Origin: Actinomycetota bacterium
GTDB lineage: Bacteria; Actinomycetota; Acidimicrobiia; Spongiisociales; UBA11373
Reading direction: 5' to 3'
Assembly (NCBI GenBank): GCA_020444505.1
Contig: JAHLKU010000008.1
Coordinates: 1 to 61,846, forward strand
DNA: 61,846 nt
Part shown: positions 8,401 to 55,297 of the stretch, one piece after another
How the letters are laid out: every line of letters starts with the position of its first letter
How positions within the stretch are numbered: position 1 is the first letter of the stretch
Position numbers and translations under genes: made by a program
The notes under the pieces: generated by a model
Database searches by the model: none
Seen by the model: only the letters and a program-made list of their open reading frames with translations
Told to the model about the DNA's origin: nothing

Positions 8401-9099
8401 ATGGCACCCCAGCGCATCCTGGTCGTGGACGACGAGGCCAACATCCGCCGCATCGTGACCACCTACCTCCGGCGCGACGGCTTCGACGTGACCGAGGCGG
8501 TCGACGGCGAGTCCGCCCTCCGCGAGTTCGACCGCATCCACCCCGATCTGGTCATCCTGGACGTGATGATGCCCGGCATCGACGGCATCGAGGTGCTCCG
8601 CAGGATCCGGCGCCGCTCCGACGCGTACGTGATCATGCTCACCGCGCGCGCCGAGGAGACCGACCAGGTGATCGGCCTCACCGTGGGCGCCGACGACTAC
8701 GTCACCAAGCCGTTCGGGGCCAAGGAACTGGTGGCGCGGGTGAAGGCGGTGCTCCGCCGCTCCCGCGACGCCGGGCCCGGGGCCGGCGACGACGAGGTCT
8801 TCGACCTGGGCGGCCTGGTCGTGGACACCGCCCGCCGCGAGGTGCTCCGGGACGGCGACCCGGTCACCCTCACCGCCCTGGAGTTCGATCTGCTCGCCGC
8901 GATGGCGGCTGCACCGGGGCGGGTGTTCAGCCGGCGCCAGTTGCTGGAGCGGGTGTGGGGCTGGGACCACGTCGGGGACGACCGGGTGGTGGACGTCCAC
9001 ATCCGCAAGCTCCGCAAGGCCCTCGGCGACGACGCCACCGACCCCCGCTTCGTCGCCACCGTGCGGGGCGTCGGCTACAAGGTGGTCGCCGCCCGATGA
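8401..9099 (+). CDS. OmpR-family response regulator
   Basis: RILVVDDEANIRRIV...LDVMMPGIDG...TARAEETDQVIGLTVGADDYVTKPF plus a winged-helix C-terminus. Confidence 0.95.
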   Translation: MAPQRILVVDDEANIRRIVTTYLRRDGFDVTEAVDGESALREFDRIHPDLVILDVMMPGIDGIEVLRRIRRRSDAYVIMLTARAEETDQVIGLTVGADDYVTKPFGAKELVARVKAVLRRSRDAGPGAGDDEVFDLGGLVVDTARREVLRDGDPVTLTALEFDLLAAMAAAPGRVFSRRQLLERVWGWDHVGDDRVVDVHIRKLRKALGDDATDPRFVATVRGVGYKVVAAR

Positions 9100-11110: not shown

Positions 11111-12334
11111 TCAGGCCTCGACGACCAGATCGGCCTCGGAGCGGTCCCACATCGACGCGAACCGCCTGGCGATCACGAACAGCAGCGGCACCACCACCAG
11201 GTTGACGAGGCCGAGCAGCCGGAACACCCCCGGGTACCCCATGTTGTCGGTGAGCGCCACCACCGACTCGCCGGCGCCCATGCCGATGTTCGACATGGTC
11301 TGCAGGATGGCGAACATCGACGCTGCGATGCGGGTGTCGGTGATGCCCATGGCCATGGTCACGTAGGTGGTCCACTGCAGCCCGACGGCGATGCCCCAGA
11401 ACGGCGCCAGCCACAGGATCGCCGCCTCCGTCGTCGCCAGGCTCAGCGCCAACCCGCCCAGCGTGACCGCGGCGATCGTCACCAGGGCGGCGGTCCGCCG
11501 GTCGAACCTGGACACCAGCGTGGCCACGCCGACGGCGCCGATCACCATCCCGACGCCCTTCAGGGTCCCGTACCAGCCGATGGTGGTGCCCGACGACGCC
11601 AGCTCCTCGTCCATGTACAGGGTCACCAGGCCCTCGATGCCCTGGAAGCAGAACCAGGTGATGACGAGGAAGAGGGCGAACAGCAGGTAGCGGGGCTGGA
11701 CCATCGCCTTGAACGCCCGCCGGTCGAACGTGTGTGCCGGGGTGCGGTGCACCGGCTCCCTCACCCGGTTGACGTAGGCCAGGGGCACCAGCAGCAGCCC
11801 GGCCACCACCAGGAAGATCACCTGGTAGCCCACCTGATCGGCGATGACGCCGAACACCAGCGACAGCAGGATCAGCCCCAGCGCGCGGCCGCCCTGCATC
11901 CACGCCTGCACCCGTCCGTGGTCCTCGGGCACCACCACGTCGATCGCCAGGGCGTCGGCGGTGGTGTCGAACAGCGCCATGAAGAACGTGGCGGTGAGCA
12001 CCATCGCCGCGATCAGCCCGAACGACTCCGACGGGTCGATGAAGTACGCGACGCCGAAGGCGATCGCGGTGCAGACCAGGCCGATCTGCATGTAGGGGAC
12101 CCGGTGGCCGCGGCCGAACAGGTCGTAGCGGTCGGAGAGGATCCCGTAGATCCACTTGATCACGAACGGCAGCAGCGCCAGCGAGGTGACGATCGCCAGG
12201 CGGTCCGGGTCGATGCCCTCGCTCCGCATGTGCGGCTTGAAGTACAGGAGCTGATAGGTGGCGATCACGCCCTGCACGAAGTAGAGCGCCCCGAACATGA
12301 TGAACAACTGGCGGCGGCTCAGATTGACGTCCAC
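11111..12334 (-). CDS. MFS transporter (AmpG / folate-biopterin transporter-like)
   Basis: About 12 hydrophobic segments; KWIYGILSDRYDLFGRGHRVPYM; FDTTADALAIDVV. Confidence 0.8.
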   Translation of the reverse strand: MDVNLSRRQLFIMFGALYFVQGVIATYQLLYFKPHMRSEGIDPDRLAIVTSLALLPFVIKWIYGILSDRYDLFGRGHRVPYMQIGLVCTAIAFGVAYFIDPSESFGLIAAMVLTATFFMALFDTTADALAIDVVVPEDHGRVQAWMQGGRALGLILLSLVFGVIADQVGYQVIFLVVAGLLLVPLAYVNRVREPVHRTPAHTFDRRAFKAMVQPRYLLFALFLVITWFCFQGIEGLVTLYMDEELASSGTTIGWYGTLKGVGMVIGAVGVATLVSRFDRRTAALVTIAAVTLGGLALSLATTEAAILWLAPFWGIAVGLQWTTYVTMAMGITDTRIAASMFAILQTMSNIGMGAGESVVALTDNMGYPGVFRLLGLVNLVVVPLLFVIARRFASMWDRSEADLVVEA

Positions 12335-12426
12335 GCCGGTCCTCCCCGTGATGCTGGGACGAGGCTACCCCCGGGGCCCGGGGCGAGCGGCCGGCGAGGC
12401 GTAGAGTCGCCTGCAGGAGGGCAGCA

Positions 12427-13155
12427 GTGTCGTGGAGCCAGCCACGCCCACCCCGGCGATCCCGCCGATGGGCCGCCGCACCGTTCGCGGCACTGGTCGC
12501 GCTGATCGCGCTGGCGCCCGGGACCGCCGCCGCCGAGGACGATGCCATCACGATCACGCCGTCCCGCGCCGAGCTCCACGTGGGCGAGACCGTGCGGTTC
12601 GAGGGCACCTCGGAGGCGTTCCCGCTCGTCGACCCGACGTGGGAGACCGACGGCAGCCACGGCACGATCGAGGTGGACCCCGACGACCCCACCGCCTGCA
12701 CCTTCACCGCGACCGCCCCCGGCATGGGCTGGGTGATCCTCTGGGAGGGGGAACGCCGGTCGGGGAGCAAGGGGTCGGCCGACATCCTGGTCCTGCCGGC
12801 CGGTGACCAGCAGTTGTCCTCGATCGCGGTCTCCCCTCCCGAGGTGAACCTGGACTTCGGGGAGCAGGAGCAGTTCAGCGCCGTCGGCTACGACACCGAC
12901 GGCAACCCCATGGACCCGCCCATCACCCCCACCTGGACCACCGACCACGGCACCATCACCGCCGACGGCACCTACACCGCCCCCGATTCCCCCGGCACCG
13001 CCACCGTCACCGCCACCGCGGAAGGCGGCGACGCGGCCGGCTCGGCCGAGGTGACGATCCCCGCCGGCACCGGTGGGATCTCCCCGTGGGTCTGGGCACT
13101 GCTCGTGCTGGTCGCGATCGTGGCGGCCGCCGCCGGGTGGGCCATCCGCCGGTAG
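12427..13155 (+). CDS. Secreted, membrane-anchored Ig-like (Big_2-type) domain protein
   Basis: N-terminal signal; ISSIAVSPPEVNLDFGEQEQFSAVGYD...TADGTYTAPDSPGTATVTAT; C-terminal TM helix plus RR. Confidence 0.75.
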   Translation: MSWSQPRPPRRSRRWAAAPFAALVALIALAPGTAAAEDDAITITPSRAELHVGETVRFEGTSEAFPLVDPTWETDGSHGTIEVDPDDPTACTFTATAPGMGWVILWEGERRSGSKGSADILVLPAGDQQLSSIAVSPPEVNLDFGEQEQFSAVGYDTDGNPMDPPITPTWTTDHGTITADGTYTAPDSPGTATVTATAEGGDAAGSAEVTIPAGTGGISPWVWALLVLVAIVAAAAGWAIRR

Positions 13156-13158
13156 CGG

Positions 13159-14367
13159 TCAGGCGCCCACCGCCACCTCGCCGCGCGTGACCACCGTGTG
13201 CACCAGGCCGGTCCCCGGCCGGTACGGCAGGTGCAGGTACGACGGAGCGTCCAGCACCACCAGGTCGGCGACGGCCCCCGGGACCAGCCAGCCACGGTCG
13301 CTCAGGCCGAGCGACAACGCACCGCCTCTGGTGGCCGCCCACAACGCCTCCTCGGGGGTGAGCCCTGCCTCGAGGCAGGCGAGCGCGACCACGAACGGCA
13401 TCGACTCGACGTAGCCGGTGCCGGGATTGCAGTCGGTGGCCAGCGCCACCGTGACCCCGGCATCCCACAGCATGCGGGCCGGCGGCTGCGGGTGGCGCAT
13501 CGACAGCGCCACGGCCGGCAGCAGCACCGCCGCCGTGCCCGCTGCGGCCAGGGCGGCGGCGTCCTCCGGTGTGGCGTGGTCCAGATGGTCGGCCGACGCC
13601 GCACTCAGGTCGGCGGCGAGGAGGGCCGCCCCGGTGTGAGCCAACTGCTCGGCGTGGATGCGGGGGCGCAGGCCGTGGGCGGCGCCGGCCTCGAGGATCC
13701 TGCGGGCCTCGTCCACGGTGAACGCCCCCCGATCGCAGAACACGTCGCAGAAGCGGGCCGACGGGGCGCAGGCCGGCAGCATCTCGTCGATCACCAGGCG
13801 GACGTACTCCTCCCGGTCCGCCCCGCGGTCCACCACGTGCGCGCCGAGGAAGGTGGGCAGGACGTCCACGCCGGCCGCCTCGCCGGCGGCCGCCGCCGCC
13901 CGCAGCATGGCGGCCTCGGTCGCGGTGTCGAGGCCGTAGCCGCTCTTCACCTCGACGGTGGTGGTGCCCTGGCCCAGCATGCGCCGCAGCCTCGCAGCGG
14001 ACTCGGCCACCAGGTCGTCGAACGGCGCCGCCCGCACCGCGGCGACCGTGGCGTGGATGCCGCCCCCGGCGGCGAGGATCTCCTCGTAGGTCTCGCCCCG
14101 CAGGCGGCGGGCGAACTCGCCGCTGCGGTCGCCGGTGAACACGGCGTGGGTGTGGGCGTCCACGAACCCGGGGATCACCGCCCGCCCGCCCGCATCGAGG
14201 ACCGGCAGGCCGCGGTGACGGGCCGGCAGCGCGGCGGCCGGACCCACCCATGCGACGGCACCGCCGGCGACGGCCACGGCGGCGTCGGCGATCACCGCCG
14301 GGTCGCCCCGGCCGGCGGCGTTGGTGACGAGGTGCCCGATGCCGGTGACCAGCAGGTCGCCGCTCAT
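13159..14367 (-). CDS. hutI: Imidazolonepropionase
   Basis: [37 protein letters not shown] at 14367 overlaps the hutU stop. Confidence 0.93.
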
Positions 14368-16019
14368 GGCTGCATGGGGATGCGGACCCCGCGCTCGCCC
14401 GCCACCTCGATCGCCCGGCCGTAGCCGGCGTCGGCGTGGCGCATCACCCCGGTGCCGGGGTCGTTGGTGAGGACCCGCTCCAGGCGGAAGGCGCCGTCGT
14501 CGGTGCCGTCGGCGACCACCTGGGCGCCGGCGTGGATGGACTTGCCGATGCCGACGCCGCCGCCGTGGTGCACGGCCACCCAGGCGGCGCCAGAGGCGGT
14601 GTTGAGCAGGGCATTGAGGATGGGCCAGTCGGCGACGGCGTCCGACCCGTCGGCCATCGCCTCGGTCTCCCGGTACGGCGACGCCACCGACCCGGAGTCG
14701 AGATGGTCCCTCCCGATGACGATGGGCGCGGCCACCTCCCCGCTGCGCACCAGGTCGTTGAAGGCCAGGCCGGCCCGGTCCCGCTCCCCGTAGCCGAGCC
14801 AGCAGATCCGGGCCGGCAGCCCCTGGAACGCCACCCGCTCCGAGGCCATCTCCAGCCAGCGGTGCAGCGCCCGGTTCTCGGGGAACAGTCGGCCGAGCGC
14901 CCGGTCGGTGGCGGCGATGTCGGCCGGGTCTCCGGACAGGGCCACCCACCGGAACGGCCCCATGCCCTCGCAGAACAGGGGCCGCAGGTAGGCGGGCACG
15001 AACCCCGGGTAGGCGAAGGCGTCGGCGAACCCGCCGGCCTTCGCCTCGCCGCGCAGGTTGTTGCCGTAGTCGAACACCTCGGCGCCGGCCGCCTGGAAGC
15101 CGACCATCGCCTCGCAGTGGCGGGCCATGGAGGCCCGGGCCTGCTCGATGTAGGCGTCGCGGTCGCGCACCCTCAGGTCTGCGGCTTCGGCGACGGTGTG
15201 GCCGCGGGGGATGTAGCCGTTGAGCGGATCGTGGGCGGAGGTCTGGTCGGTGACGACGTCGATCTCGACGCCCCGGGCCAGCAGGTCCGGGAACACGTCG
15301 GCGGCGTTGCCCTCCACCCCCACCGACAGCCGGCGCCGGGCCGCCCTGGCGGCCAGGCACATCTCGACGGCCTCGTCGAGACTCCCCGCCATCTCGTCGA
15401 GGTAGCGGGTCTCGAGGCGGCGCCGGATCCGCTCCGGATCCACTTCCACGCACAGCGCAACGCCGTCGTTCATGGTCACGGCGAGCGGCTGGGCGCCGCC
15501 CATGCCGCCGAGGCCTGCGGTGAGGGTGAGCGTCCCGGCCAGCGTGCCGCCGAACCGCTGCTCGGCGATGGCGGCGAAGGTCTGGTAGGTGCCCTGCAGG
15601 ATCCCCTGCGTGCCGATGTAGATCCACGACCCCGCCGTCATCTGGCCGTACATCATCAGCCCCGCCGCCTCCAGGTCCCAGAAGGTCTCCCAATCGGCCC
15701 AGTCGGGCACGAGCAGGCTGTTGGCGATCAGCACCCGCGGGGCCAGGGGATGGGTGCGGAACACCCCGACCGGCTTGCCCGACTGCACCAGCAGGGTCTC
15801 GTCGTCCCCGAGCCCGCTCAGCGTGGCGACGATGGCGTCGAAGGCGTCCCACGACCTGGCGGCCCTGCCCCGCCCGCCGTAGACGACCAGTTCATCGGGG
15901 TTCTCGGCCACCTCGGGGTCGAGGTTGTTCATCAGGCAGCGGAGCGCCGCCTCCTGGAGCCAGCCGCGGGCGGTGCGCTCGGTGCCCCTGGGGGCTCGCA
16001 CGGGACGGGGACCGGACAC
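14364..16019 (-). CDS. hutU: Urocanate hydratase
   Basis: [45 protein letters not shown] start at 16019. Confidence 0.95.
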
Positions 16020-16111
16020 GGCTGACCTCCTCGGCGACGACGATGCCAGCGTACCGGCGGGGCCGCGGCGGCGGCAGCGGCTACATTCACCCGCGAGCAA
16101 CAAGGAAGAGC

Positions 16112-43567: not shown

Positions 43568-43792
43568 TCACGCCTTGACGATCACGAACGACTGTGCGCC
43601 GTCTGTCTCGAAGGTCTCCTTGAGGTCGTACCCCATGTCGTCCACCCACGCCGGCACGTCGACGGCCGCCATGGGGTCGGTGGTCACCAGCTCGATGCTC
43701 TCGCCGATCCCGGCACGCCGCAGGGCCTCCGAGGCCCTGAGGATGGGGATCGGGCAGCGGGCATCGCGCACTTCGATGCGCTGATCGGCCAC
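43568..43792 (-). CDS. tusA: TusA-family sulfurtransferase (second copy)
   Basis: GTG start after GGGAGGAACC; VRDARCPIPILRASEALRRAGIGESIELVTTDP (CPxP). Confidence 0.85.
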   Translation of the reverse strand: MADQRIEVRDARCPIPILRASEALRRAGIGESIELVTTDPMAAVDVPAWVDDMGYDLKETFETDGAQSFVIVKA

Positions 43793-43896
43793 GGTTCCTC
43801 CCTCGTCCGGGGCGACTCCGCATGCCCCGTGTCCCGCGGAGTGTCGCATACGGGCCGGGGGTGTCAAGCACCTCCCGCCACCCCGGCGGAGGGTGC

Positions 43897-45273
43897 TCAG
43901 ACCGGCTGCAGGCGAGCGGTGAAGTGGCGCAGCCAGGGCGCCGACTCGACGATCCGGTATCCGCCGATCGAGGGGGCCCGTTCGGCCACCGCGAGGATCA
44001 CCTCCGCCACGTAGTCGATGTGGCTCTGGGTGTAGGTGCGGCGTGGGATGGCGAGGCGGACGAGTTCCATGGCCGCCGGCTCCTCGGTGCCGTCGGGCTG
44101 GGGACGGCCGAACATGAGCGAGCCGATCTCCACCCCCCGCACGCCGCCGTCCCGGTACAGCTCCACCGCCAGCGCCTGGGCCGGGTACTGCGACGGCGGG
44201 ATGTGGGGCAGCAGCGTCCTGGCGTCCAGGTACACGGCGTGGCCCCCGGGGGGCTTGACGATGGGCACGCCGGCGGCGTCCGCCTTCTCCGCCAGGTATG
44301 CCGTCGAGCGGATGCGGTAGCGGAGGTACTCCTCCTCGAGCACCTCCTCGAGGCCGCGGGCGATCGCCTCCAGGTCGCGGCCGGCGAGGCCGCCGTAGGT
44401 GGGGAACCCCTCGGTGAGGATCAGCAGGTTGCGGCACCGCCCCGCCAGTTCCTCGTCGTGCATGGCGAGGAACCCGCCGATGTTGGCGAGCCCGTCCTTC
44501 TTGGCCGAGAAGGTGGCGCCCTCGGCGAGGGAGAACATCTCCCGTGCGATCTCCCGGGGGGTCTTGTCGGCGTAGCCCGGCTCGCGCAGCTTGATGAACC
44601 ATGCGTTCTCGGCGAAGCGGCACGCGTCCAGGAACAGGGGGATGCCGTGGCGGTCGCACACCGCGCGCACCTCCCGCAGGTTCTCCATGGACACCGGCTG
44701 GCCCCCGCCCGAGTTGTTCGTCACGGTGACCATCACCATCGGCACCCGCTCCGCCCCCACGTCGGCGATGACGGCCTCGAGGCGCTCGACGTCCAGGTTC
44801 CCCTTGAACGGGTGCTCGGACGCCGGGTCCCGGCCTTCGGCGATCACCAGGTCGAGCGCCTCGGCGCCCTGGTACTCGATGTTGGCCCGCGTGGTGTCGA
44901 AGTGGGTGTTGTTGGGGACGACGTCCCCCTCCCGCACCGCCTCGGCGAACAGGATGCGCTCGGCCGCCCTCCCCTGGTGCGTAGGGATCATCTGCGGCAT
45001 GTCGGTGAGTTCGCACACCACCTCCCGCAGCCGGTACCACGACCGGCTGCCGGCGTACGACTCGTCGCCCACCATCATCGCCGCCCACTGGGCGTCCGAC
45101 ATCGAGCCGGTGCCCGAGTCGGTGAGGAGATCGATGATCACCTCGTCGGCGTGCAGGTTGAACAGGTTGTAGCCGGCCCGCTCCAGGGCCGCCTCCCGCT
45201 CGGCGGCGGACGGCAGGGCGATCTCCTGCACGGAGTGGATGCGGAACGGTTCGATGATCGTCCGGTACGGCAC
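43897..45273 (-). CDS. tnaA: Tryptophanase / tyrosine phenol-lyase family (tryptophanase-like)
   Basis: DSGTGSMSDAQWAAMMVGDESYAGSRSWY; FSAKKDGLANIGG PLP lysine; LPHIPPSQYPAQALAVELYRDGGVRGVEIGS. Confidence 0.85.
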   Translation of the reverse strand: MPYRTIIEPFRIHSVQEIALPSAAEREAALERAGYNLFNLHADEVIIDLLTDSGTGSMSDAQWAAMMVGDESYAGSRSWYRLREVVCELTDMPQMIPTHQGRAAERILFAEAVREGDVVPNNTHFDTTRANIEYQGAEALDLVIAEGRDPASEHPFKGNLDVERLEAVIADVGAERVPMVMVTVTNNSGGGQPVSMENLREVRAVCDRHGIPLFLDACRFAENAWFIKLREPGYADKTPREIAREMFSLAEGATFSAKKDGLANIGGFLAMHDEELAGRCRNLLILTEGFPTYGGLAGRDLEAIARGLEEVLEEEYLRYRIRSTAYLAEKADAAGVPIVKPPGGHAVYLDARTLLPHIPPSQYPAQALAVELYRDGGVRGVEIGSLMFGRPQPDGTEEPAAMELVRLAIPRRTYTQSHIDYVAEVILAVAERAPSIGGYRIVESAPWLRHFTARLQPV

Positions 45274-45353: not shown

Positions 45354-45518
45354 TCAGGACTCCTCGTCGGTGTCCTCGCCCTCCTGCAGGCCCTTGCGCA
45401 GCTCACGGGCCGAGCGGCCGATGGAGCGTGCCAGGTCGGGCAGCTTGGCCGCTCCGAAGAACAGCACCAGCACCCCGGCGATCACCAGCAGTTCGCCGGC
45501 TCCCAGTTGACGGAACAT
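45354..45518 (-). CDS. tatA: Sec-independent translocase TatA (54 aa)
   Basis: Read directly: MFRQLGAGELLVIAGVLVLFFGAAKLPDLARSIGRSARELRKGLQEGEDTDEES. Not in the ORF track (<60 aa). Canonical TM-FG-amphipathic helix. Confidence 0.92.
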   Translation of the reverse strand: MFRQLGAGELLVIAGVLVLFFGAAKLPDLARSIGRSARELRKGLQEGEDTDEES

Positions 45519-45537
45519 GCCTCCTCCTCTCCCCCGC

Positions 45538-46596
45538 TCACCCTGTGACCGCGGCCGCCACGGCGGCGGCCAGGTCGGAGGGGGCGAGGCCGGGCGCTTC
45601 TACGCTCCCGGTCCGGTACACCTCTTCGAAACGGTCCTCGAGCGCCCCGGGTTCCACCCCGCGGGCCGCGGCCTCCAGATCGCCGACGGCGGTGGCCGGC
45701 AGGATCGTGAAATCGCCGGTCAGCGCCAGGTCGTCGATGGCACCCTCCCGCAGCCGGGCGGTCACGCGGACCAGGCCGGCCGGGGTCTTCAACGCCCCTT
45801 CGACCACGTGGACGTCCTGGTGGATCTTGACGCCGGCGGCCTTCGCCGGGCGCTGCTGCAGCACCCACGCCGGGTCGGCGAACCGCTCGTCCAGTCGGGC
45901 GGCGATGCGCTCCTCCTCGGCGGTGAGCCCGCCCGGCACCAGGGCGCCGCCCAGCGCTTTGGCGCATCGGGAGAGGTAGGCGTCCACCACCGCGGCGCGG
46001 TCGGCGTCGACCAGGTCGGCGACGGTCACCATGTACTCCGTCAGGCTCTCGAGCACCTTGTCGCGCATCTTCTCCGAGGGCACCTTGAGCACCTCGGCCA
46101 TGGTGCGGCGGTCGAAGTCGAGCATCAGGCTGCCCACCAGCACGAGTGCGTCGCCGATCTGGGCGGCGCCGGTGCCGCCGATCTTGCGGCCGCCGACGTG
46201 GACGTCGTTGACGGGCCGCAGGTAGGCGTCGATGCCCAGGTCCCGGTAGGCCTCGACGAGCGGGGCGATGTAGGCGGCGTAGCGGTCCTCGAGGCGGCCC
46301 GGCACCCGTGACGGGTGGACCACCCATTGCACGAACACCTGGTCGTCGTCCAGGTACACGGCGCCGCCGCCCACCTCCCGCCGGTACACGGGCAGGCCGA
46401 GCGCCTCGCAGCGCGCCAGGTCCACCTCCTGTTCGGCGTCCTGGTGGAACCCGACGCAGACGTAGGGGTCGCTCGGCGACACCAGGATCACCGTGTCGGG
46501 GCCGTCGGGCCCCAGGGCCCTCGCCACGGCGTGGTACACGGTCTGGGACCGCACCGCGGGCACCCGGCCCAGGTCGAGCAGCCGCACGTCGCTCAC
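45538..46596 (-). CDS. lplA: Lipoate-protein ligase A family
   Basis: YRREVGGGAVYLDDDQVFVQWVV; NDVHVGGRKIGGTGAAQIGDALVLVGSLMLDFD; GTG start directly after hypC. Confidence 0.88.
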   Translation of the reverse strand: MSDVRLLDLGRVPAVRSQTVYHAVARALGPDGPDTVILVSPSDPYVCVGFHQDAEQEVDLARCEALGLPVYRREVGGGAVYLDDDQVFVQWVVHPSRVPGRLEDRYAAYIAPLVEAYRDLGIDAYLRPVNDVHVGGRKIGGTGAAQIGDALVLVGSLMLDFDRRTMAEVLKVPSEKMRDKVLESLTEYMVTVADLVDADRAAVVDAYLSRCAKALGGALVPGGLTAEEERIAARLDERFADPAWVLQQRPAKAAGVKIHQDVHVVEGALKTPAGLVRVTARLREGAIDDLALTGDFTILPATAVGDLEAAARGVEPGALEDRFEEVYRTGSVEAPGLAPSDLAAAVAAAVTG

Positions 46597-46597
46597 G

Positions 46598-46849
46598 TCA
46601 TCCTCCGATCCTGGGAGGCGACGCCTCCTCCACCTGCCGCAGCACGTCGAGGGTCTCGCGGGCGTCCTCCTCGTCCACCCGGTTGAGGGCGAACCCCATG
46701 TGGGCCATCACGTAGTCGCCCACCTCGGCCTCCGGGACGTAGTCGAGGCGCACCGTGGCGGGGCTGCCGCCCACGTCCACGGTGGCGACGGCGATCCCGA
46801 GTGCGTTGCGCTCGATGGCGGTCACCCGCACCGGCACCGCTATGCACAT
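46598..46849 (-). CDS. hypC: Hydrogenase assembly chaperone HypC
   Basis: MCIAVPVRVTAIERN...GDYVMAHMGFALNRVDEEDARETLDVL. Confidence 0.92.
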   Translation of the reverse strand: MCIAVPVRVTAIERNALGIAVATVDVGGSPATVRLDYVPEAEVGDYVMAHMGFALNRVDEEDARETLDVLRQVEEASPPRIGG

Positions 46850-46879
46850 GGGGGGCCTCCCTCTCCCGGCGCCGTCCGC

Positions 46880-47362
46880 TCAGACACGGGCGTCCTCCTC
46901 CTGCCATGCGGCCACCACCTCGGCGGCGCGATCCACCACCTGCGGGAGCGCCGCCTCGATGGCGACGCTCATCTCGATCCCGATGGACAGGTCCTCGGGC
47001 TGCAGCCCCACCAGGCGCAGCACCGGCGGCAGCTTGCCGCGCACCTGCGCCAGGCCGAGCACCTCCTGCATGGTGATCTGATGCTGGGACATCTTCACCC
47101 CTGCGAACAGCGGGATCTCGTCCCGGTCCATCTCCACCAGCGTGCCGGGAGGCGCGCCGCGGTCCACCGCGTCGAGCACCAGCAGGCGTTCGCACTCCTC
47201 CACCAGCGGCAGCAGGTTCAGACCGAGCACGCCACCGTCGATCGCCTCCACGGGGCCGCCGTCGGGCAGCCGCCCCTCCAGGAGCCGCAGGGCGTGCACG
47301 CCCAGACCCTCGTCCCGGTTCAGGACGTTGCCCACACCCAGGACCACGCTCCGTCCCCTCAT
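46880..47362 (-). CDS. Hydrogenase maturation protease (HyaD/HybD family)
   Basis: VVLGVGNVLNRDEGLGVHALRLLE; VEAIDGGVLGLNLLPLVEECERLLVLDAVD. Confidence 0.92.
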   Translation of the reverse strand: MRGRSVVLGVGNVLNRDEGLGVHALRLLEGRLPDGGPVEAIDGGVLGLNLLPLVEECERLLVLDAVDRGAPPGTLVEMDRDEIPLFAGVKMSQHQITMQEVLGLAQVRGKLPPVLRLVGLQPEDLSIGIEMSVAIEAALPQVVDRAAEVVAAWQEEDARV

Positions 47363-47372
47363 CCGGCGCGTC

Positions 47373-49109
47373 CTAGGTCCAGCAGACATCGAGGCCGGTG
47401 GACGCTTCGCCCACTTGCTCGCCGTCGGCGTCCACCAGGTGGATGGCGCAGGCCATGCACGGGTCGAACGAGTGGATGGTGCGCAGGATCTCGAGCGGCC
47501 ATTCCGGCTTGGCGAGCGTCGTGCCCACCAGCGACGCCTCGTAGGCGCCCGCCTGCCCCTGGGCGTCGCGCGGCGAGGCGTTCCAGGTGGTCGGGACGAC
47601 CATCTGGTAGTTGTCGATCTTGCCGTTGCCGATGACGATCCAGTGCCCGAGTGCGCCGCGCGGCGCCTCCATGAACCCGAAGCCGCGCGCCTTGGACGGC
47701 CACGAGATCGGCTCCCAGCGGTCGCCGTTGTGGGTCTCGGTGTCGCCGGCCTTGATCAGCGCGATCAACTCGCCGTAGAGCGTCCGCAACTGGTCGGCGA
47801 ACACCTTGGTCTCGATGGCCCTGGCGGCGGTGCGCCCGAGCGTGGAGAACACCGCCTCGATCGGGGCGCCCAGCGCGCTGAGGGTGCCGTCCACCAGGTC
47901 GACCGTCTGGTCGTGCCCGGAGGCGTACATCGCCAGCACCCGGGCCAGCGGCCCCACCTCGACGGGCATGCCGTTCCAGCGGGGCGACTTGAGCCACGAG
48001 TACTTCTGGTCCACCTCGAGGTGGTCGTAGGGCGGCTGCGGGCCGGTGAAGTTGAACGTCGTCTCACCCTCCCAGGGGTGGAGCCCCTGGGCATCGCCGC
48101 CGCCGTACTCGTACCAGGAGTGGGCGATGAACTCCTGCATCTTGTCCATGTCGTTGGGGTCGGGCTCGGTCATCCCGGCCAGGTCCCGGCCCACGATCAG
48201 CGACCGGGGCACCACGAACTTCGACGTGTCGGAGTGGTCCACGCCCGGCAGCTCGCCCCAGGTGAGGAAGTTGCCGAGGCCCTCGCCGAGCCCGGCGTAG
48301 TCCAGGTAGTAGGGGGCGATGGCGAGCACGTCCGGCAGGTACACCTGGTCGACGAAGTCGATGATCCGGGTGATCGAGTCGGAGATGATCGCCAGCCGCT
48401 CGGCGTTCAGCGCCGTGTCGCTGTCCAGGTCGATGGGCATCGGCACGCCGCCGACCACGAAGTTGGGGTGCGGGTTCTTGCCGCCGAAGATCGTGTGGAT
48501 CTTGGTGACGTGGCGCTGCCAGTCGAGGGCCTCCAGGTAGTGCGCCACCGCCAGCAGGTTCACCTCGGGCGGCAGCTTGTAGGCCGGGTGGCCCCAGTAG
48601 GCGTTGGCGAAGATCGACAACTGGCCGCTGTCGACGATCGCCTGCACCTTGGCCTGCACGTCGGCGAAGTAGCCGGGCGACGAGTTGGGCCACGGCGAGA
48701 TCGCCTGCTGGATCTCGGAGGTCCCCTTGGGATCGGCGCGGAGCGCGTCCACCACGTCCACCCAGTCGAGGGCGTGCAGGTGGTAGAAGTGCATCACGTG
48801 GTCGTGCACGTACTGCTGGGCGATCATCAGGTTCCTGATGACGTTGGCGGCCGACGGGATCTGGATCCCGAGGGCGTCCTCCACCGAGCGGATCGATGCG
48901 AACGAGTGCACCGTGGTGCACACCCCGCAGGCGCGCTGGGCGAACGCCCATGCGTCGCGCGGGTCCCGCCCCTCGAGGATGACTTCGATGCCGCGCACCA
49001 TCGTGCCCGAGGAGTACGCCTCGGTGATCACGCTGTTGGCATCGACCTCGGCCTCGATGCGGAGATGTCCTTCGATCCTGGTGATCGGGTCGACGACGAG
49101 TCTTGCCAC
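47373..49109 (-). CDS. [NiFe]-hydrogenase large subunit (group 1 type)
   Basis: DPITRIEGHLRIE; RACGVCTTVHSFASIRSVEDA (L1); SFDPCMACAIH (L2) followed by a 21-aa cleavable tail. Confidence 0.95.
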   Translation of the reverse strand: MARLVVDPITRIEGHLRIEAEVDANSVITEAYSSGTMVRGIEVILEGRDPRDAWAFAQRACGVCTTVHSFASIRSVEDALGIQIPSAANVIRNLMIAQQYVHDHVMHFYHLHALDWVDVVDALRADPKGTSEIQQAISPWPNSSPGYFADVQAKVQAIVDSGQLSIFANAYWGHPAYKLPPEVNLLAVAHYLEALDWQRHVTKIHTIFGGKNPHPNFVVGGVPMPIDLDSDTALNAERLAIISDSITRIIDFVDQVYLPDVLAIAPYYLDYAGLGEGLGNFLTWGELPGVDHSDTSKFVVPRSLIVGRDLAGMTEPDPNDMDKMQEFIAHSWYEYGGGDAQGLHPWEGETTFNFTGPQPPYDHLEVDQKYSWLKSPRWNGMPVEVGPLARVLAMYASGHDQTVDLVDGTLSALGAPIEAVFSTLGRTAARAIETKVFADQLRTLYGELIALIKAGDTETHNGDRWEPISWPSKARGFGFMEAPRGALGHWIVIGNGKIDNYQMVVPTTWNASPRDAQGQAGAYEASLVGTTLAKPEWPLEILRTIHSFDPCMACAIHLVDADGEQVGEASTGLDVCWT

Positions 49110-49118
49110 GGCGTCCTC

Positions 49119-49439
49119 CTACTGCTCACGAAGCCACGCCAGGGCCTCGTCCTCGGTTGCGGCGAACTTCACCGGGTGCGTGTAGTAGCTCTCGGGGATG
49201 TCGATCTCCGAGGGGTCGAGGTCTGCGCCGAACACGGCGGCCGTCGGCATCATCGGCCGGAAGTGGGCGATGTGCCGGGCGCATTCCTCCCCGGTGGTTC
49301 CGGTCAGGTCGATCAGGAGCTTCCCCCGGTAGTCGTGGAGGAAGTGCGCCAGCATCTGGACGTCCTCCGACGAGAGCGTCCCGGTGTGGCGGCACCGCAT
49401 GATCCCCTTCTCGACGGGGGTCAGGGTGAAAGATGTCAT
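49119..49439 (-). CDS. STAS/SpoIIAA-like small protein within the hydrogenase operon
   Basis: GIMRCRHTGTLSSEDVQMLAHFLHDYRGKLLIDLTGTTGEECARHIAHFRPMMPTAAVFGAD; located between isp2 and the large-subunit gene. Confidence 0.7.
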   Translation of the reverse strand: MTSFTLTPVEKGIMRCRHTGTLSSEDVQMLAHFLHDYRGKLLIDLTGTTGEECARHIAHFRPMMPTAAVFGADLDPSEIDIPESYYTHPVKFAATEDEALAWLREQ

Positions 49440-49467
49440 GTCTGCTCTCCCTTGCGCGTCGCGGGGG

Positions 49468-50724
49468 TCATTCCATGGCCTCGGCGACCATCTCGGCCAG
49501 GCCGCGGAACTTCATGTCCCAGTCGAAGTGCTCGGCCCCGTCGAGGAACTGGAGCCGGCAGTTCGAGCACGCCATGACCACGGTCTCGGCCCCGACGGCC
49601 TCCGCCTGGGCGATCTTCAACTCGAACGCCTTGTAGCGGATCGGGTCGGCCTCCTTGATGGCGATCACGCCGCCGCCGCCCCCGCAGCAGATGGCCTGCT
49701 CCCGGTTGGGCGTCATCTCGGTGAACGACTCGGGCGCCAGGATCGACAGCAGCTTGCGGGGCTCCTCGATGTGGCCGCCGCGGCGCTGGATCTTGCAGGC
49801 GTCGTGGAAGGTGATCTTCCCGTCGCCGTCGTAGGCGCCCGCCTTCAGCGTGATCCTGCCCGATTCCACGTACTCGCCGAGCACGGCGGCGATGTGGGTG
49901 ATCTCGATGTCGGGGACGTCCATCAGATTGGGCGCCGTCCACCGCAGGGCGTCGTAGGCGTGGCCGCACTCGGTGACCACGATCTTCTTCACCCCCAGCT
50001 CCACCGCCCCGTCGAACACCCGGGACAGCAGCAGCCTGGTGTGGTCGGCGCTCCCCTCGTAGAACCCGAAGTTCACCACCTCGCGCGCCTTGCTGCTCAA
50101 CGTCCAGTTCTCACCGGCGGCGTTGAGGATCGAGGCGATGTGCGCCAGGTTGTCGGGGAACTTCATGATCTCGATGGACGAGAAGATCACCAGCGTGTCG
50201 GCGCCCTCCTTGTCCACCGGGAGGTCGATCTCCCAGTCGTCGGCGATCCACTCCAGACGGCTCTCGAACACGTCGTCGGTGACGCCGAGGGGGCTGCCCT
50301 CCTCGATCTGCTTGTTCACGGCGGCCGCCAGGTCGTCGGGCACCATGCCGGCTTCGGCCAGCCCGGCCCGCACGTCGTGGATGATCGGGCCGAGCTGGAT
50401 GCCCATCGGGCACACCATGGCGCACTTGTTGCACACCGTGCATGCCTCGTAGACCAGCTTGCTCCACGCCTCCAGGTCGGCCTCGTCCACCTTCTTCTGC
50501 AGATGGAGCATCGTGCGCAGCTTGCCTCCGAGCGTGAACTCCTGCTCGTAGGCCCGTTTGAGGAGCTCCACCTTCCACACCGGGGCGAAGTCGGGGTTGC
50601 CGGTCGCCTGGTAGAAGTGGCACGCCTCGGCGCAGATGCCGCAGCGGGTGCAGGCCTCCAGCTGGGAGGCGACCCATCCGCCGGTCTCTTCGACGAACGT
50701 GTCGATGGCTCGCGTCGTCTTCAT
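49468..50724 (-). CDS. HdrD/DsrK-like iron-sulfur protein (Isp2)
   Basis: CTRCGICAEACH and CTVCNKCAMVCP ferredoxin motifs; CCG-type C-terminus (HDACK...CCGGGGG...CSNC). ATG at 50724 after GGGAGG. Confidence 0.9.
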   Translation of the reverse strand: MKTTRAIDTFVEETGGWVASQLEACTRCGICAEACHFYQATGNPDFAPVWKVELLKRAYEQEFTLGGKLRTMLHLQKKVDEADLEAWSKLVYEACTVCNKCAMVCPMGIQLGPIIHDVRAGLAEAGMVPDDLAAAVNKQIEEGSPLGVTDDVFESRLEWIADDWEIDLPVDKEGADTLVIFSSIEIMKFPDNLAHIASILNAAGENWTLSSKAREVVNFGFYEGSADHTRLLLSRVFDGAVELGVKKIVVTECGHAYDALRWTAPNLMDVPDIEITHIAAVLGEYVESGRITLKAGAYDGDGKITFHDACKIQRRGGHIEEPRKLLSILAPESFTEMTPNREQAICCGGGGGVIAIKEADPIRYKAFELKIAQAEAVGAETVVMACSNCRLQFLDGAEHFDWDMKFRGLAEMVAEAME

Positions 50725-50735
50725 TGCGCCTCCCA

Positions 50736-51413
50736 TCACGGCGTCACCGCCCGCTTGCCGAACTGCGCACCGTGGATCGTCCTCGAGAAGAAGTAGAAGA
50801 CGAAGTGCGAGATCCGGCTGAAGGGGATCCAGATCAACATCACGTCCACCGCCAGCACGTGCAGGCTGTAGATGACCTCGTACCTGAACAGCAGGTGGTG
50901 GGTCGTCATGTAGCCGGTCAGCATCGGCAGGAACACGAACAGCCAGTTGAGCGCCTCGGCCGGGCCGGACAGCTTCCGCAGCAGCGGGTTGGCCACCCGG
51001 TTGATGGCCAGCGCCACCATGGCGGCGATGGCCGCCGCCGCCAGCCAGTCGATGATCGGCAGCGGCAGGGTCGGCCAGCCGAACCCGAGCATGCTCTTCC
51101 ACGCCAGCATGTGCGGGGCGCCGAAGATGATGATCGCGAACAGGCCGAGGTGGAAGATGCCGCCGGCGATCAGCGTGACCGCGTTGCCGGCGAACGTCTG
51201 CTTCACCCACGGCACGAACGGCCAGATGATCAGGCCCTTGCCGTACGACTTGGCCACCCCGCCGGCCTTGCTGCCGGCCGAGGGCACCCGGTCACGGGAC
51301 CACCCGAGGGTGAGCACCCGCACCAGGCGGTAGGTGAGGCCGCCGACGAACACGAACAGCGCCGCCGTGAAGAACGGGCCTCTGGCGAATTCCAGGGTTG
51401 CGTTCCAGTCCAT
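50736..51413 (-). CDS. Membrane cytochrome b (NarI/DsrM/Isp1-like)
   Basis: Five to six TM helices with conserved His (GGIFHLGLFAIIIFG, TTHHLLF, SLHVLAVDVMLIWIPFSRISH). Confidence 0.85.
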   Translation of the reverse strand: MDWNATLEFARGPFFTAALFVFVGGLTYRLVRVLTLGWSRDRVPSAGSKAGGVAKSYGKGLIIWPFVPWVKQTFAGNAVTLIAGGIFHLGLFAIIIFGAPHMLAWKSMLGFGWPTLPLPIIDWLAAAAIAAMVALAINRVANPLLRKLSGPAEALNWLFVFLPMLTGYMTTHHLLFRYEVIYSLHVLAVDVMLIWIPFSRISHFVFYFFSRTIHGAQFGKRAVTP

Positions 51414-51422
51414 GGTCGCCTC

Positions 51423-52571
51423 CTACGCGTCCTCGTCGCCCGGTTCGGCCGAGCCGGCGCGCCGCTTCTTCATCCGGTTGGCCGTGGCCGCTCCGGCGCC
51501 GACGACGGCGCCTGCGGCCGCCGCCACCCCGACCGCAGCGGCCCCGGGGCGGTTCAGCGGGGCCGACTGGCCCTGGTAGAAGCCGCCGCCGTCCCAGAAG
51601 TTCGGCTGCGAGCAGCCGAGGCAGGGATGGCCGGACTGGATGGGGAACGACAGGCCGGCGTCCCACTTGATCGTGGCGCAGGCGTTGTACGTGGTCGGGC
51701 CCTTGCAGCCCAGCTTGTACAGGCACCACCCCTTGCGGGCGCCCTCGTCGTCGAACGACTTGGCGAACTTGCCCGCCTCGTAGAAGGGGCGGCGCAGGCA
51801 CCGGTCGTGGATGGTCTGGCCGTAGAACGTCTTCGGCCGGTTCAGGTCGTCGAGTTCGGGCAGGGTCCCGAACACGATGAACTGCAGCAGCACCGCCGTC
51901 GTGACCTCGGGGATCGCCGGGCAGCCGGGGATGTTCACCACCGGCTTGTCGGTGATGATCTCCCACACGCCCTTGGCCTCGGTGGGGTTGGGGTCGGCCT
52001 TGGGCAGGCCGCCGAACGACGAGCAGTTGCCGGTGCTGATGATGGCCGCCGCACCCTCCGCCGCCTCCTCGAGCAGGTCGAGGGCGGTGCGGCCGCCGAT
52101 GGTGCAGTGGATGCCGCCGTCGGCCACCGGGATGCTGCCCTCCACCACCAGCACGTACTGGCCGTGGTACTTCTGCATCATCGCGTCGCGGTTCTCCTCC
52201 GCCTGGAAGCCGGCGGCGGCGAACAGCGTCTCGTGGTAGTCGATGGAGATCTCGTTGAGCACCAGGTCGCCCAGGGTGGGCGACTGGGACCTGGTCAGCG
52301 CCTCGGTGCACCCGGCGCAGTCCTGGAACTCCAGCCAGATCACCGGCACCCGGGGCTTGGTCTCGAAGGCCCGGACGATCAGCGGCGTCGCATCGGCCTG
52401 CGGCCCCGCCAGCGACGCCGGCAGGCCGCTGGCCTCCACCGGCGCCGGGACGCCGCAGAACGCCATCGTCCCGGCCAGCGCACCGCAGTACTTGACGAAG
52501 TCTCGGCGGGAGACGCCCTTCGAGCGCAGGTGCTCGTAGATGGTCTCCTGCGGTTCGGAGCCCTTAGTCAC
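51423..52571 (-). CDS. [NiFe]-hydrogenase small subunit with Tat signal and C-terminal TM anchor
   Basis: SRRDFVKYCGALAG twin-arginine motif; EFQDCAGCTEALTRS; NIPGCPAIPE; C-terminal hydrophobic helix + KKRR. GTG start at 52571. Confidence 0.95.
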   Translation of the reverse strand: MTKGSEPQETIYEHLRSKGVSRRDFVKYCGALAGTMAFCGVPAPVEASGLPASLAGPQADATPLIVRAFETKPRVPVIWLEFQDCAGCTEALTRSQSPTLGDLVLNEISIDYHETLFAAAGFQAEENRDAMMQKYHGQYVLVVEGSIPVADGGIHCTIGGRTALDLLEEAAEGAAAIISTGNCSSFGGLPKADPNPTEAKGVWEIITDKPVVNIPGCPAIPEVTTAVLLQFIVFGTLPELDDLNRPKTFYGQTIHDRCLRRPFYEAGKFAKSFDDEGARKGWCLYKLGCKGPTTYNACATIKWDAGLSFPIQSGHPCLGCSQPNFWDGGGFYQGQSAPLNRPGAAAVGVAAAAGAVVGAGAATANRMKKRRAGSAEPGDEDA

Positions 52572-53004
52572 ACGACACCCCCTCCGATTCGAGGAACTCG
52601 CGATAGGCGGCGATGCCCTCCTCGCCGGTGACGAGGCCGGCGGGGTCGAACGCCTCCACCTGCAGGTCGGCGACCCAGCCCTCTCCGTAGGGGTCGGTGA
52701 CGGCCAGGTTGGGGTCGCCGACGAGGGCGTCGTTGCCGTGGAGGAGGGTGCCGGTGATCGGGCTCGGCACGGGCCCGACGTACTTGGAGGACTCGAGCGT
52801 GGCCACGCTCTTGCCCTGGGGGACCTCCTTGCCCAGCTTGCGGGCGCTGACGGTGACCGCCGCCAGCGAGCCGCCCGACAGCTTGGCGGCGACGGAGGTG
52901 ATGCCGACCCGGATCACGCCGCCGTCCATCGGCCGGGCCCAGACGTGCTTGTCGAGCAGGTAGTAGAGCTCCTCGGGGAGCTCGCACCCATTGATCTCGG
53001 CCAT
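52564..53004 (-). CDS. GcvH-like lipoyl carrier protein (LbpA-like)
   Basis: MAEINGCELPEELYYLLDKHVWARP...VATLESSKYVGPVPSPITGTLL (lipoyl-Lys motif); overlaps the start of the hydrogenase small subunit. Confidence 0.85.
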   Translation of the reverse strand: MAEINGCELPEELYYLLDKHVWARPMDGGVIRVGITSVAAKLSGGSLAAVTVSARKLGKEVPQGKSVATLESSKYVGPVPSPITGTLLHGNDALVGDPNLAVTDPYGEGWVADLQVEAFDPAGLVTGEEGIAAYREFLESEGVSCD

Positions 53005-53018
53005 CTCTCCTCCTCGTC

Positions 53019-53384
53019 TCAGAACGTCAGGACCGTGCTGCTGTTCTCGGCGAGCTGCCACATCGCCGCCCCGCCGACCATCTTCACGCCGTCGATGAGG
53101 TCGCCCTCGTCGATGTCGTGGAGCTCGGTGGCCGCGGTGCAGGCGACGAACTTCACGCCCGCCTCCTGGGCGTCCTGCATGAAGCCGGCGACCGCCCGGC
53201 CGCCCTCCTTGGGCACGACCGTCTCGGCCACGCCCTCCTTCAGCAGGAGGATCCCGTCGATGGTGAAGAACATCGTGACCTCGTACTCCATGGCCGCCGC
53301 GAGGTGGGCGAAGAAGAACGGGGTGGCGCAGCGCCGGGGGGTCTCCGGGCCGCTGGTCATGATGATGAGGACCTGGTCTTCCAC
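53019..53384 (-). CDS. DsrE-family protein
   Basis: VLIIMTSGPETPRRCATPFFFAHLAAAMEYEVTMFFTIDGILLL; GTG start after AGGAGG. Confidence 0.82.
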   Translation of the reverse strand: MEDQVLIIMTSGPETPRRCATPFFFAHLAAAMEYEVTMFFTIDGILLLKEGVAETVVPKEGGRAVAGFMQDAQEAGVKFVACTAATELHDIDEGDLIDGVKMVGGAAMWQLAENSSTVLTF

Positions 53385-53395
53385 GATGCTGCCTC

Positions 53396-53866
53396 CTAGA
53401 ACGCCAGGGCGATGCCGTCTTCGGCCACGTAGTTCAAGAAGGTGGCCGCCCCGCCGATCTCCACCTCGTCGAGCAGCTCCTCGCGCTCGATGCCCATGAC
53501 GTCCATGGTCATCTGGCAGCCGATGAGGCGGACGCCGCTCATCACCGCCATGTCGAGGAGCTCGCTGAGCTTGGCGACGTTCGCCTTGCCCATCCAGTTG
53601 TTCATCATCCCGGTGGCCACCGCCGTCATGCCGGGGAGCATCCCGACGATGTTGGGAACCGGCACCGGCATCGCCGGGTTGGCGATGGGGGCCACCTTCA
53701 GCTTGTCGGCCTTGCCCTTCTTGATGATCTCCAGCCCGTAGAAGGTGAAGAAGATCGCCGACTCCATGTCGAGAGCGGCCGCCGAGGTGGCCAGGATCAG
53801 CGGCGGGTAGGCCGCGTCGAGAGTGCCGTGCCCGGCGATGATGCCGAGTCGCTTCGCCGTCGCCAT
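53396..53866 (-). CDS. DsrE2-like sulfur-carrier family protein
   Basis: ALDMESAIFFTFYGLEIIKKG; SGVRLIGCQMTMDVMGIEREEL. Confidence 0.82.
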   Translation of the reverse strand: MATAKRLGIIAGHGTLDAAYPPLILATSAAALDMESAIFFTFYGLEIIKKGKADKLKVAPIANPAMPVPVPNIVGMLPGMTAVATGMMNNWMGKANVAKLSELLDMAVMSGVRLIGCQMTMDVMGIEREELLDEVEIGGAATFLNYVAEDGIALAF

Positions 53867-53871
53867 CTCGC

Positions 53872-54108
53872 TCAGCCCTTCTTCTCGATGAGGAACACGT
53901 ACTTGCCGTCGGCCTCGGAGGCCTCCAGCAGGGCGTGACCGGTGCGGTCGGTCCACGCCGCGACGTCGGCGGTGGAGCCGGCGTCGGTGGAGATCATCTG
54001 GAGCACCTGGCCGGCCTCCATGTCGTCGATGGCCTTCTTGGTCTTCAGGATCGGCATGGGGCATGCCAGGCCGCTGCAGTCGAGCACCTGGTCAGGGGTG
54101 GCGGACAT
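53872..54108 (-). CDS. tusA: TusA-family sulfurtransferase (first gene of the operon)
   Basis: VLDCSGLACPMPILKTKKAIDDMEAGQVLQMISTD (CPxP motif). Confidence 0.92.
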   Translation of the reverse strand: MSATPDQVLDCSGLACPMPILKTKKAIDDMEAGQVLQMISTDAGSTADVAAWTDRTGHALLEASEADGKYVFLIEKKG

Positions 54109-54361: not shown

Positions 54362-55297
54362 ATGCTGAACCCGATCGAACTCAACGTGTTCGCGATGGCT
54401 GCCGAGACGGAGAACTTCTCCGAGGCGGCCCGGCGCCTCGGCGTGACCCAGCCGACGGTCAGCCTGCACATCCGCTCGCTGGAGGAGCGCCTCGGCATCG
54501 ACCTCTTCACCCGTTCCGGCCGCAACGTGGTGCTCACCGACGCCGGGCGGGCGCTCATCCCCCTGGCCCGCGACATCCTGCAGCGCTGCGCCCGCATCGA
54601 GGAGACGATGCTGTCGCTGAAGGGCGAGGTGGTCGGCCTGCTCGAGATCGGGTGCACCACCGCCTCGGGCAAGTACGTGCTCCCCCGCATCCTGCGCGGC
54701 CTGCGCGACCGGCACCCCCGGCTGGAGGTGGTGTGCCGGGTCACCAACCGCCACGACGCCCTCCGCCTGCTGCACATCGGCGACGTGCAGGTGGCCATCA
54801 CCAGCCTCGAGGAGGCGTCGCGCGACCTGGACTACCGCGAGTTCGCCACCGACCACATCGTGCTGATCACCCCGCCCGGCCACCCCTGGGCGGGGCTGGG
54901 GCGGCCGGTGCGCCCCGACGAGTTGCTGCAGGGCGAGTTCATCACCCGGGAGGAGGGCTCCGGCACCGATGCCGCGGTGCGGGAGGCCCTCGCCGACCAC
55001 GGCATCGGCATCGACGACCTGCCCAGGATCATGGAACTGGGCAACTCGGAGGCCATCCGGATGGCGGTGGCCGAGGGCATCGGGGTCGGCTTCGTGTCGG
55101 CCCTGGTGGCCACCGAGGCCGGGGCGGGCCCGGTGCAGATCGTGCCGATGGAGGGGATGTCGCCGCAGCGCGCCCTGTACATGGTGCGCGACTCGTCGCG
55201 GCCGGCCACCACCGCCCAGACCGCCTTCTGGGACTTCGCGTTCTCGCCCGAGATGGACGGGGTGCGCGACCGCATCACCCGCCCCGCGATCGCCTGA
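54362..55297 (+). CDS. LysR-family transcriptional regulator
   Basis: NVFAMAAETENFSEAARRLGVTQPTVSLHIRSLEERLGIDLFTRSGR plus substrate-binding domain. Confidence 0.93.
   Translation: MLNPIELNVFAMAAETENFSEAARRLGVTQPTVSLHIRSLEERLGIDLFTRSGRNVVLTDAGRALIPLARDILQRCARIEETMLSLKGEVVGLLEIGCTTASGKYVLPRILRGLRDRHPRLEVVCRVTNRHDALRLLHIGDVQVAITSLEEASRDLDYREFATDHIVLITPPGHPWAGLGRPVRPDELLQGEFITREEGSGTDAAVREALADHGIGIDDLPRIMELGNSEAIRMAVAEGIGVGFVSALVATEAGAGPVQIVPMEGMSPQRALYMVRDSSRPATTAQTAFWDFAFSPEMDGVRDRITRPAIA

Follow-up and report, generated by a model that had tools for sequence, protein, structure and literature searches.

An Isp-type [NiFe] hydrogenase encoded with a lipoyl-carrier sulfur relay: a candidate link between hydrogen and sulfur

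With what does Isp2, the HdrD-like subunit of Isp-type [NiFe] hydrogenases, exchange electrons in the cytoplasm? The role of this subunit has stayed unsettled, although physiology links the enzymes to elemental sulfur. The question is raised by an operon on a 61,846-nucleotide stretch of DNA from an Actinomycetota bacterium (GenBank assembly GCA_020444505.1, contig JAHLKU010000008.1, positions 1 to 61,846; this whole stretch is called the window). An Isp-type hydrogenase (HydS, Isp1, Isp2, HydL) is encoded there together with TusA, two DsrE-type proteins, the lipoate-binding protein LbpA and a lipoate-protein ligase. The components are individually familiar; their combination, in which a hydrogenase of the Isp type is joined to a sulfur relay built on a lipoyl carrier, appears to be new. 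Among the open-access papers searched, none was found to describe it, in line with an earlier note on this DNA, made from the sequence alone, which knew of no such system. Gene content and swapped evolution point to LbpA, so far placed in sulfur oxidation based on the heterodisulfide-reductase-like sHdr complex, as a candidate partner of Isp2.

Gene content and conservation

The operon occupies positions 45354-54108 of the minus strand, from the tusA start (54108) to the tatA stop (45354), and is tightly packed. Open reading frame listing and family searches bore out the gene list, order, strand and coordinates of the earlier note:

54362..55297, plus strand: LysR-family regulator, divergent to the operon (Pfam LysR_substrate 5.5e-45, HTH_1 3.6e-22)
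53872..54108, minus strand: tusA1, sulfur carrier (TusA match 2.6e-25; CPxP Cys16)
53396..53866, minus strand: dsrE2-like sulfur carrier (DrsE_2/DsrE_2 7e-48; Cys117)
53019..53384, minus strand: dsrE-like (DsrE 1e-17; Cys19 and Cys82)
52564..53004, minus strand: lbpA, lipoate-binding protein (GCV_H 3e-23; Cys7, Lys74 in ESSK, Cys145)
51423..52571, minus strand: hydS, [NiFe] hydrogenase small subunit (TIGR00391 6e-129; twin-arginine (Tat) signal TIGR01409; C-terminal hydrophobic segment)
50736..51413, minus strand: isp1, cytochrome b-type membrane subunit (TmcC/HmcE families 3e-34)
49468..50739, minus strand: isp2, HdrD/DsrK-like (DsrK/HmcF/TmcB 1e-63; two [4Fe-4S] motifs and one CCG motif)
49119..49439, minus strand: STAS-like small protein, 106 aa (Pfam SpoIIAA-like E 0.03; Foldseek STAS domains E ~3e-3)
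47373..49109, minus strand: hydL, [NiFe] hydrogenase large subunit, Isp-type family (PF00374 8e-225; trees)
46880..47389, minus strand: hydrogenase maturation protease (HycI 1.9e-26)
46598..46849, minus strand: hypC (PF01455 4e-24)
45538..46596, minus strand: lplA, lipoate-protein ligase with LplA and LplB domains (PF21948 1.4e-34; TIGR00545 4.7e-32; NF053749 3.9e-12)
45354..45518, minus strand: tatA-like (PF02416 2e-13)

Successive gaps from tusA to the protease gene measured 5, 11, 14, -8, 9, -4, 28, 9 and -17 bases, followed by 30 (protease-hypC), 1 (hypC-lplA) and 19 bases (lplA-tatA); the range of -17 to 30 bases agrees with the short or negative spacing noted earlier. A separate tusA-lbpA transcription unit left no sign: one strand is used throughout and gaps to hydS are short in most loci. 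The STAS-like label of the earlier note is weakly held by the matches listed; Cys16 and Cys53 of this protein are invariant, and roughly half of the relatives' clusters include its gene.

By its gene content the hydrogenase is assigned to the Isp type (group 1e-like), since HydS with a Tat signal, HydL with both CxxC motifs, Isp1 and Isp2 are encoded in one cluster. HydL is 62-67% identical to purple-bacterial Isp hydrogenases and falls into its own supported sister clade to them. Histidines 88, 101, 173, 185 and 203 of Isp1 are kept across the family, four of the five also in nearly all outgroup Isp1 proteins. The CCG motif of Isp2 (C315, C351-C352, C391xxC394) makes up a single CCG domain, against the two that characterise heterodisulfide-cleaving HdrB/HdrD. 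The predicted Isp2 structure (predicted local distance difference test score 87.5) matched EtfD (PDB 9ojn, best) and HdrB (5odc). A same-family HydL homologue in genome G005 comes without Isp1/Isp2 and without relay genes.

LbpA is defined by a lipoyl lysine and two cysteines, one near each terminus, the cysteines being missing in GcvH (Cao et al., PMC6067878). Cys7, Lys74 and Cys145 of the operon carrier were invariant in all 17 cluster proteins counted, recurred in five additional loci (L247-L251), and were aligned with the same residues in the sHdr-linked LbpA of locus L115; both cysteines were missing from 12 GcvH/GcvH-like proteins. Because of these hallmarks the GCV_H-family protein of the operon is identified from its residues as LbpA. 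An identity as GcvH was rejected on the cysteines and on the separate canonical GcvH, one of which is encoded besides LbpA in most carrier genomes; the LbpA-less genome G409 has canonical GcvH alone. The remaining relay proteins retain their cysteines in alignments: Cys16 of TusA and Cys117 of the DsrE2-like protein in 15/15 relatives each, Cys19 and Cys82 of the DsrE-like protein in 17/17. The DsrE2-like protein scored 160.9 bits with NF047629, under that model's cut-off of 210. The ligase combines LplA and LplB domains, matching sLpl(AB) (PMC10332631). LipA is encoded in all ten genomes checked; a LipS-like gene was seen in G412 only, by one partial LipS query.

No close Isp2 was found by plasmid and family-level searches (best identity ≤35%), and no other Isp2 of >35% identity among 397 genomes from the phylum of the host. 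Since the plasmid and family-level searches had found nothing close, a genome-wide scan was carried out with HydL as query; 80 loci were returned, and sulfur genes were confined to those nearest the window by HydL identity. The full order tusA, dsrE2, dsrE, lbpA, hydS, isp1, isp2, (STAS-like), hydL, protease, lplA was found in L073, L074, L076, L078-L082 and L084 (some of these are truncated by contig ends). Wider sampling added seven Anaerolineae loci (L220-L226) and five Acidobacteriota/Aminicenantes loci (L247-L251), so that the core tusA/dsrE/lbpA-hydS-isp1-isp2-hydL-protease-lplA is conserved in 22 genomes (Anaerolineae, Acidobacteriota/Aminicenantes and the host), apparently spanning three bacterial phyla. 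The cluster occurs in ~2-3% of the sampled Chloroflexota and Acidobacteriota genomes, which makes the host a probable member of a third phylum. TusA and DsrE adjoin LbpA in every locus complete enough to judge. Among the other Isp loci, LbpA was nearby only in L115 (1-12074), a gammaproteobacterial contig with an Isp-type hydrogenase, where it lies in a separate sHdr-LbpA cluster some kb off on the opposite strand. Conservation of the sulfur and lipoate genes beside this hydrogenase class, on which the earlier note had staked its proposal, is thus established. The association is not due to chance, and a functional link between hydrogenase and sulfur relay is well supported by comparative genomics.

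The earlier note had also allowed that a complete sHdr complex elsewhere might already use this LbpA. With an sHdrB query that recovers the sHdr genome G418, no sHdr complex (shdrC1B1A-hyp-C2B2) was found in the ten carrier genomes checked. Six genomes (G408, G412-G416) gave zero matches; those in the host (G000), G407 and G417 were HdrABC-type operons, with MvhADG alongside in the host and G417 (the G407 contig stops within HdrA), and those in G410 were other HdrBC loci. The host genome (2.54 Mb, 97.6% complete) was searched directly, and its operon on contig C16 (1-7300; L040) encodes HdrABC-MvhADG of the soluble bifurcating hydrogenase type, not of the sHdr type. HdrA, HdrB and HdrC are thus missing from the window, as the earlier note stated, and not from the genome. 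Incompleteness of metagenome-assembled genomes limits any single absence; the sHdr-free pattern spans all ten, and a hidden sHdr complex as the user of this LbpA was rejected.

Isp2 and the accessory module

LbpA and the sulfur genes are missing from three close relatives of the Isp type (L075, L077, L228), and each encodes a DUF302 membrane-type protein with conserved Cys near the hydrogenase (L228 3446-3916; L075 12776-13285; L077 11762-12283). Within the available flanking DNA, a DUF302 gene was found in none of the 22 LbpA loci. HydL of L075 and L077 is up to 81-85% identical to LbpA-linked HydL, and their Isp2 just 45-53%. Their Isp2 proteins fall a mean 19 and 22 points under the trend of LbpA-linked pairs (residual standard deviation 2.9), and their HydS and Isp1 lie within a few points of it, in a comparison that is descriptive, the pairs being non-independent. 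Columns that are invariant across the LbpA type but carry another residue in L075 as well as in L077 numbered 36 in Isp2, 1 in Isp1 and 0 in HydS; every cluster cysteine of Isp2 is retained.

In the HydL tree, L075 was placed beside the window (99/94) and L077 with L078/L223 (98/97). The DUF302 types formed one clade in the Isp2 tree (100/100), a grouping rejected by HydL (approximately unbiased test, p-AU 0.010) and by HydS (p-AU 3e-5); clade groups for these tests were defined after the neighbourhoods had been seen. LbpA-linked Isp2 proteins fell into one clade in 21 of 22 cases (99/96), and monophyly of all 22 was borderline (p-AU 0.06). Isp1 trees were too weak to discriminate (p-AU ~0.2-0.35).

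HydS and HydL of the DUF302-type relatives thus remain ordinary family members, and Isp2 is set apart. Isp2 tracks the accessory module, because the DUF302-type Isp2 forms a separate clade while HydL and HydS reject that grouping. The simplest reading would be recombination or partner exchange, with Isp2 moving with LbpA or with DUF302. A contact of LbpA with the Isp2 subunit would predict such joint travel, and the swapping lends phylogenetic support to the earlier proposal of Isp2 as the contact point for the lipoyl carrier. The DUF302 protein may be another, undescribed partner of Isp2, and the DUF302-linked relatives offer a natural negative control.

Proposed reaction and competing explanations

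The operon probably encodes, on a judgement somewhat better than even, a transmembrane H2:LbpA-disulfide/persulfide oxidoreductase, with the H2-driven reductive direction favoured. We infer the contact between LbpA and Isp2, its chemistry and direction, the sulfur source and the energy coupling as follows. Tat-exported HydSL would split H2 on the outer side, and electrons would cross the membrane via the haems b of Isp1 to cytoplasmic Isp2, the single CCG-type cluster of which would reduce LbpA-bound sulfur (present as a lipoyl disulfide, or as a persulfide/trisulfide in which lipoate and the C-terminal cysteine take part). LbpA would be lipoylated by LplA and genome-encoded LipA and loaded with sulfane sulfur by TusA and the DsrE proteins; sulfide would be released after the reduction. 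Protons released outside and consumed inside would make the step electrogenic. The outcome would be H2-driven sulfur respiration, with LbpA in the role that DsrC has for DsrMK.

This route is proposed by analogy with DsrMK/DsrC and with the Isp hydrogenase of Thiocapsa. DsrMK reduces DsrC-trisulfide and conserves energy (PMC10504309), H2-dependent S0 reduction is the sole known major function of the Thiocapsa enzyme (PMC10892978), and the sulfur carrier of sHdr is LbpA (PMC6067878). No haem-copper oxidase was seen in 7 of the 17 carrier genomes. As the potential of H2 (~ -0.41 V) lies below that of lipoamide (~ -0.29 V), electron flow from H2 to LbpA would be exergonic, and by topology electrogenic. 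Whether the HdrD-like subunit of a hydrogenase exchanges electrons directly with sulfur on a lipoyl carrier, in a novel kind of sulfur respiration, or the reverse of it, that would build a membrane potential without sulfite reductase or sHdr, is judged to be evenly balanced.

Several points weigh against the proposed reduction of LbpA by H2. Haem-copper oxidases are encoded in 10/17 carrier genomes, the host included, which bears on the direction. EtfD, the best fold match of Isp2, hands electrons to quinone, so that action on disulfides does not follow from a CCG domain. A cytoplasmic source of sulfur was not found, and dsrA was present in just 4/17 carrier genomes, the host not among them (DsrC itself was not searched). 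Locus L084 has LbpA, yet its Isp2 branches outside the main LbpA clade. Nearly all carrier genomes are uncultured assemblies.

The main rival keeps the contact between Isp2 and LbpA and reverses the flow: LbpA-bound sulfur would be oxidised and electrons passed via Isp1 to quinone (or to protons at HydL at low H2), so that the respiratory chain of a facultative aerobe would receive electrons from H2 as well as from sulfur. We regard it as possible, though rather doubtful. Sulfur oxidation is the only setting from which LbpA, TusA, DsrE and LplA are known together (PMC6067878), the cytochrome b families to which Isp1 belongs are quinone-reactive, and the oxidases fit this direction in the genomes that have them, the host's among them. 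The seven genomes without a visible oxidase do not, however, and neither sHdr (ten genomes) nor, outside four of the 17, DsrA is there to carry sulfur to sulfite. The dedicated hydrogenase would become the odd part, and electrons at the lipoyl potential would go uphill to H2 at standard conditions.

Alternatively, the sulfur genes might serve biogenesis or regulation, by delivering Fe-S sulfur to Isp2/HydS or by redox sensing, and LbpA would be no substrate. TusA and DsrE-type proteins deliver sulfur in other contexts, and the STAS-like gene and adjoining LysR regulator would suit such a role. It is nevertheless unlikely: in relatives without the sulfur genes HydS, HydL and Isp1 are the same and Isp2 keeps all its cluster cysteines, no known cluster assembly system includes a lipoyl carrier and a dedicated ligase, and the sorting of Isp2 alone with the module is left unexplained. 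A second glycine-cleavage H-protein (H2-driven lipoamide reduction in a reductive glycine pathway, the sulfur genes being incidental) is very improbable despite the PF01597 match, given the invariant cysteines and lipoyl lysine, their cysteine-free GcvH counterparts, the separately encoded canonical GcvH, and TusA and DsrE alongside in every sufficiently complete locus. A coincidental neighbourhood, favoured by nothing found except the limited number of phyla, is practically dismissed by the order conserved in 22 genomes and the mutual exclusion of LbpA and DUF302 types.

If the proposed H2-LbpA reaction is true, lipoate-bound sulfur would serve uncultured Anaerolineae and Acidobacteriota as electron acceptor or donor for H2, a hydrogen-sulfur link invisible to marker-gene surveys of dsr, sox and shdr. 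LbpA would gain a role beyond sHdr, and the cytoplasmic substrate of the Isp2 protein would be named.

Related systems and neighbouring genes

By its gene content the operon belongs with Isp hydrogenases and with LbpA systems, and outside sHdr and DsrMK. HydS, Isp1, Isp2 and HydL are shared with the Isp-type (HynSL/HydSL, group 1e) hydrogenase of Thiocapsa and Allochromatium; outgroup Isp loci are operons without tusA/dsrE/lbpA/lplA, and their Isp2 is just 34-43% identical to that of the window. TusA, DsrE-type proteins, two-cysteine LbpA and a dedicated Lpl(AB)-type ligase are shared with the sHdr-LbpA system of Hyphomicrobium and Thioalkalivibrio, whose sHdrC1B1A-C2B2 is replaced here by a hydrogenase with single-CCG Isp2; in most carriers here LipA, and not LipS1/S2, appears to be encoded. 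DsrMK/DsrC would work in a like manner, with a cytochrome b and HdrD-like pair, a cytoplasmic sulfur carrier that is reduced, and energy conserved; in the operon the carrier is LbpA, electrons would come from a built-in hydrogenase, and DsrAB is missing in 13/17 genomes. In methanogens with HdrDE and Vht hydrogenase, the reduction of a disulfide at an HdrD-type protein is powered by H2 oxidised on the outside, much as proposed for the operon; unlike Isp2, methanogen HdrD has two CCG domains and acts on CoM-S-S-CoB via methanophenazine. HdrABC-MvhADG (host contig C16, also G417) likewise ties H2 to a CCG-type subunit but is soluble, flavin-bifurcating and encoded in a separate operon.

The LysR gene (54362-55297) is by position a candidate regulator of the operon; Chloroflexota relatives have a helix-turn-helix/excisionase-type regulator gene in its place. 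tatA was not met as a conserved member in other loci, and the adjacency of tatA and hypC is confined to the window. Downstream of the operon and outside the conserved set, a tryptophanase/tyrosine phenol-lyase-family gene is followed by a second tusA (43568-45273); a C-S or C-N lyase linked to TusA is possible.

Further lipoate-related genes were seen in two loci. Downstream of the L078 cluster (13838-16037), the hyp genes are accompanied by a radical SAM (LipS-like) gene and by second genes for a GcvH-like protein and for LplA. On an Acidithiobacillus ferrooxidans plasmid (NZ_CP040512.1; L236), an LbpA-like protein (9001-9447) that has both cysteines and shares 40% identity with the window LbpA is encoded near an HdrD-like CCG-domain protein (11364-12704); hydrogenase and sHdr genes are not among the genes listed around them.

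Related [NiFe] large subunits (~60% identity) are encoded in the Anaerolineae loci L208-L210, L213, L215, L216, L218, L219 and L234. In-frame TGA replaces both cysteines of their N-terminal Ni-binding motif (CGVC to UGVU; for example, L234 6951-8624); the motif of the L214 large subunit reads CGVU. The C-terminal CxxC is kept across these TGA-bearing proteins, which are candidate double-selenocysteine hydrogenases.

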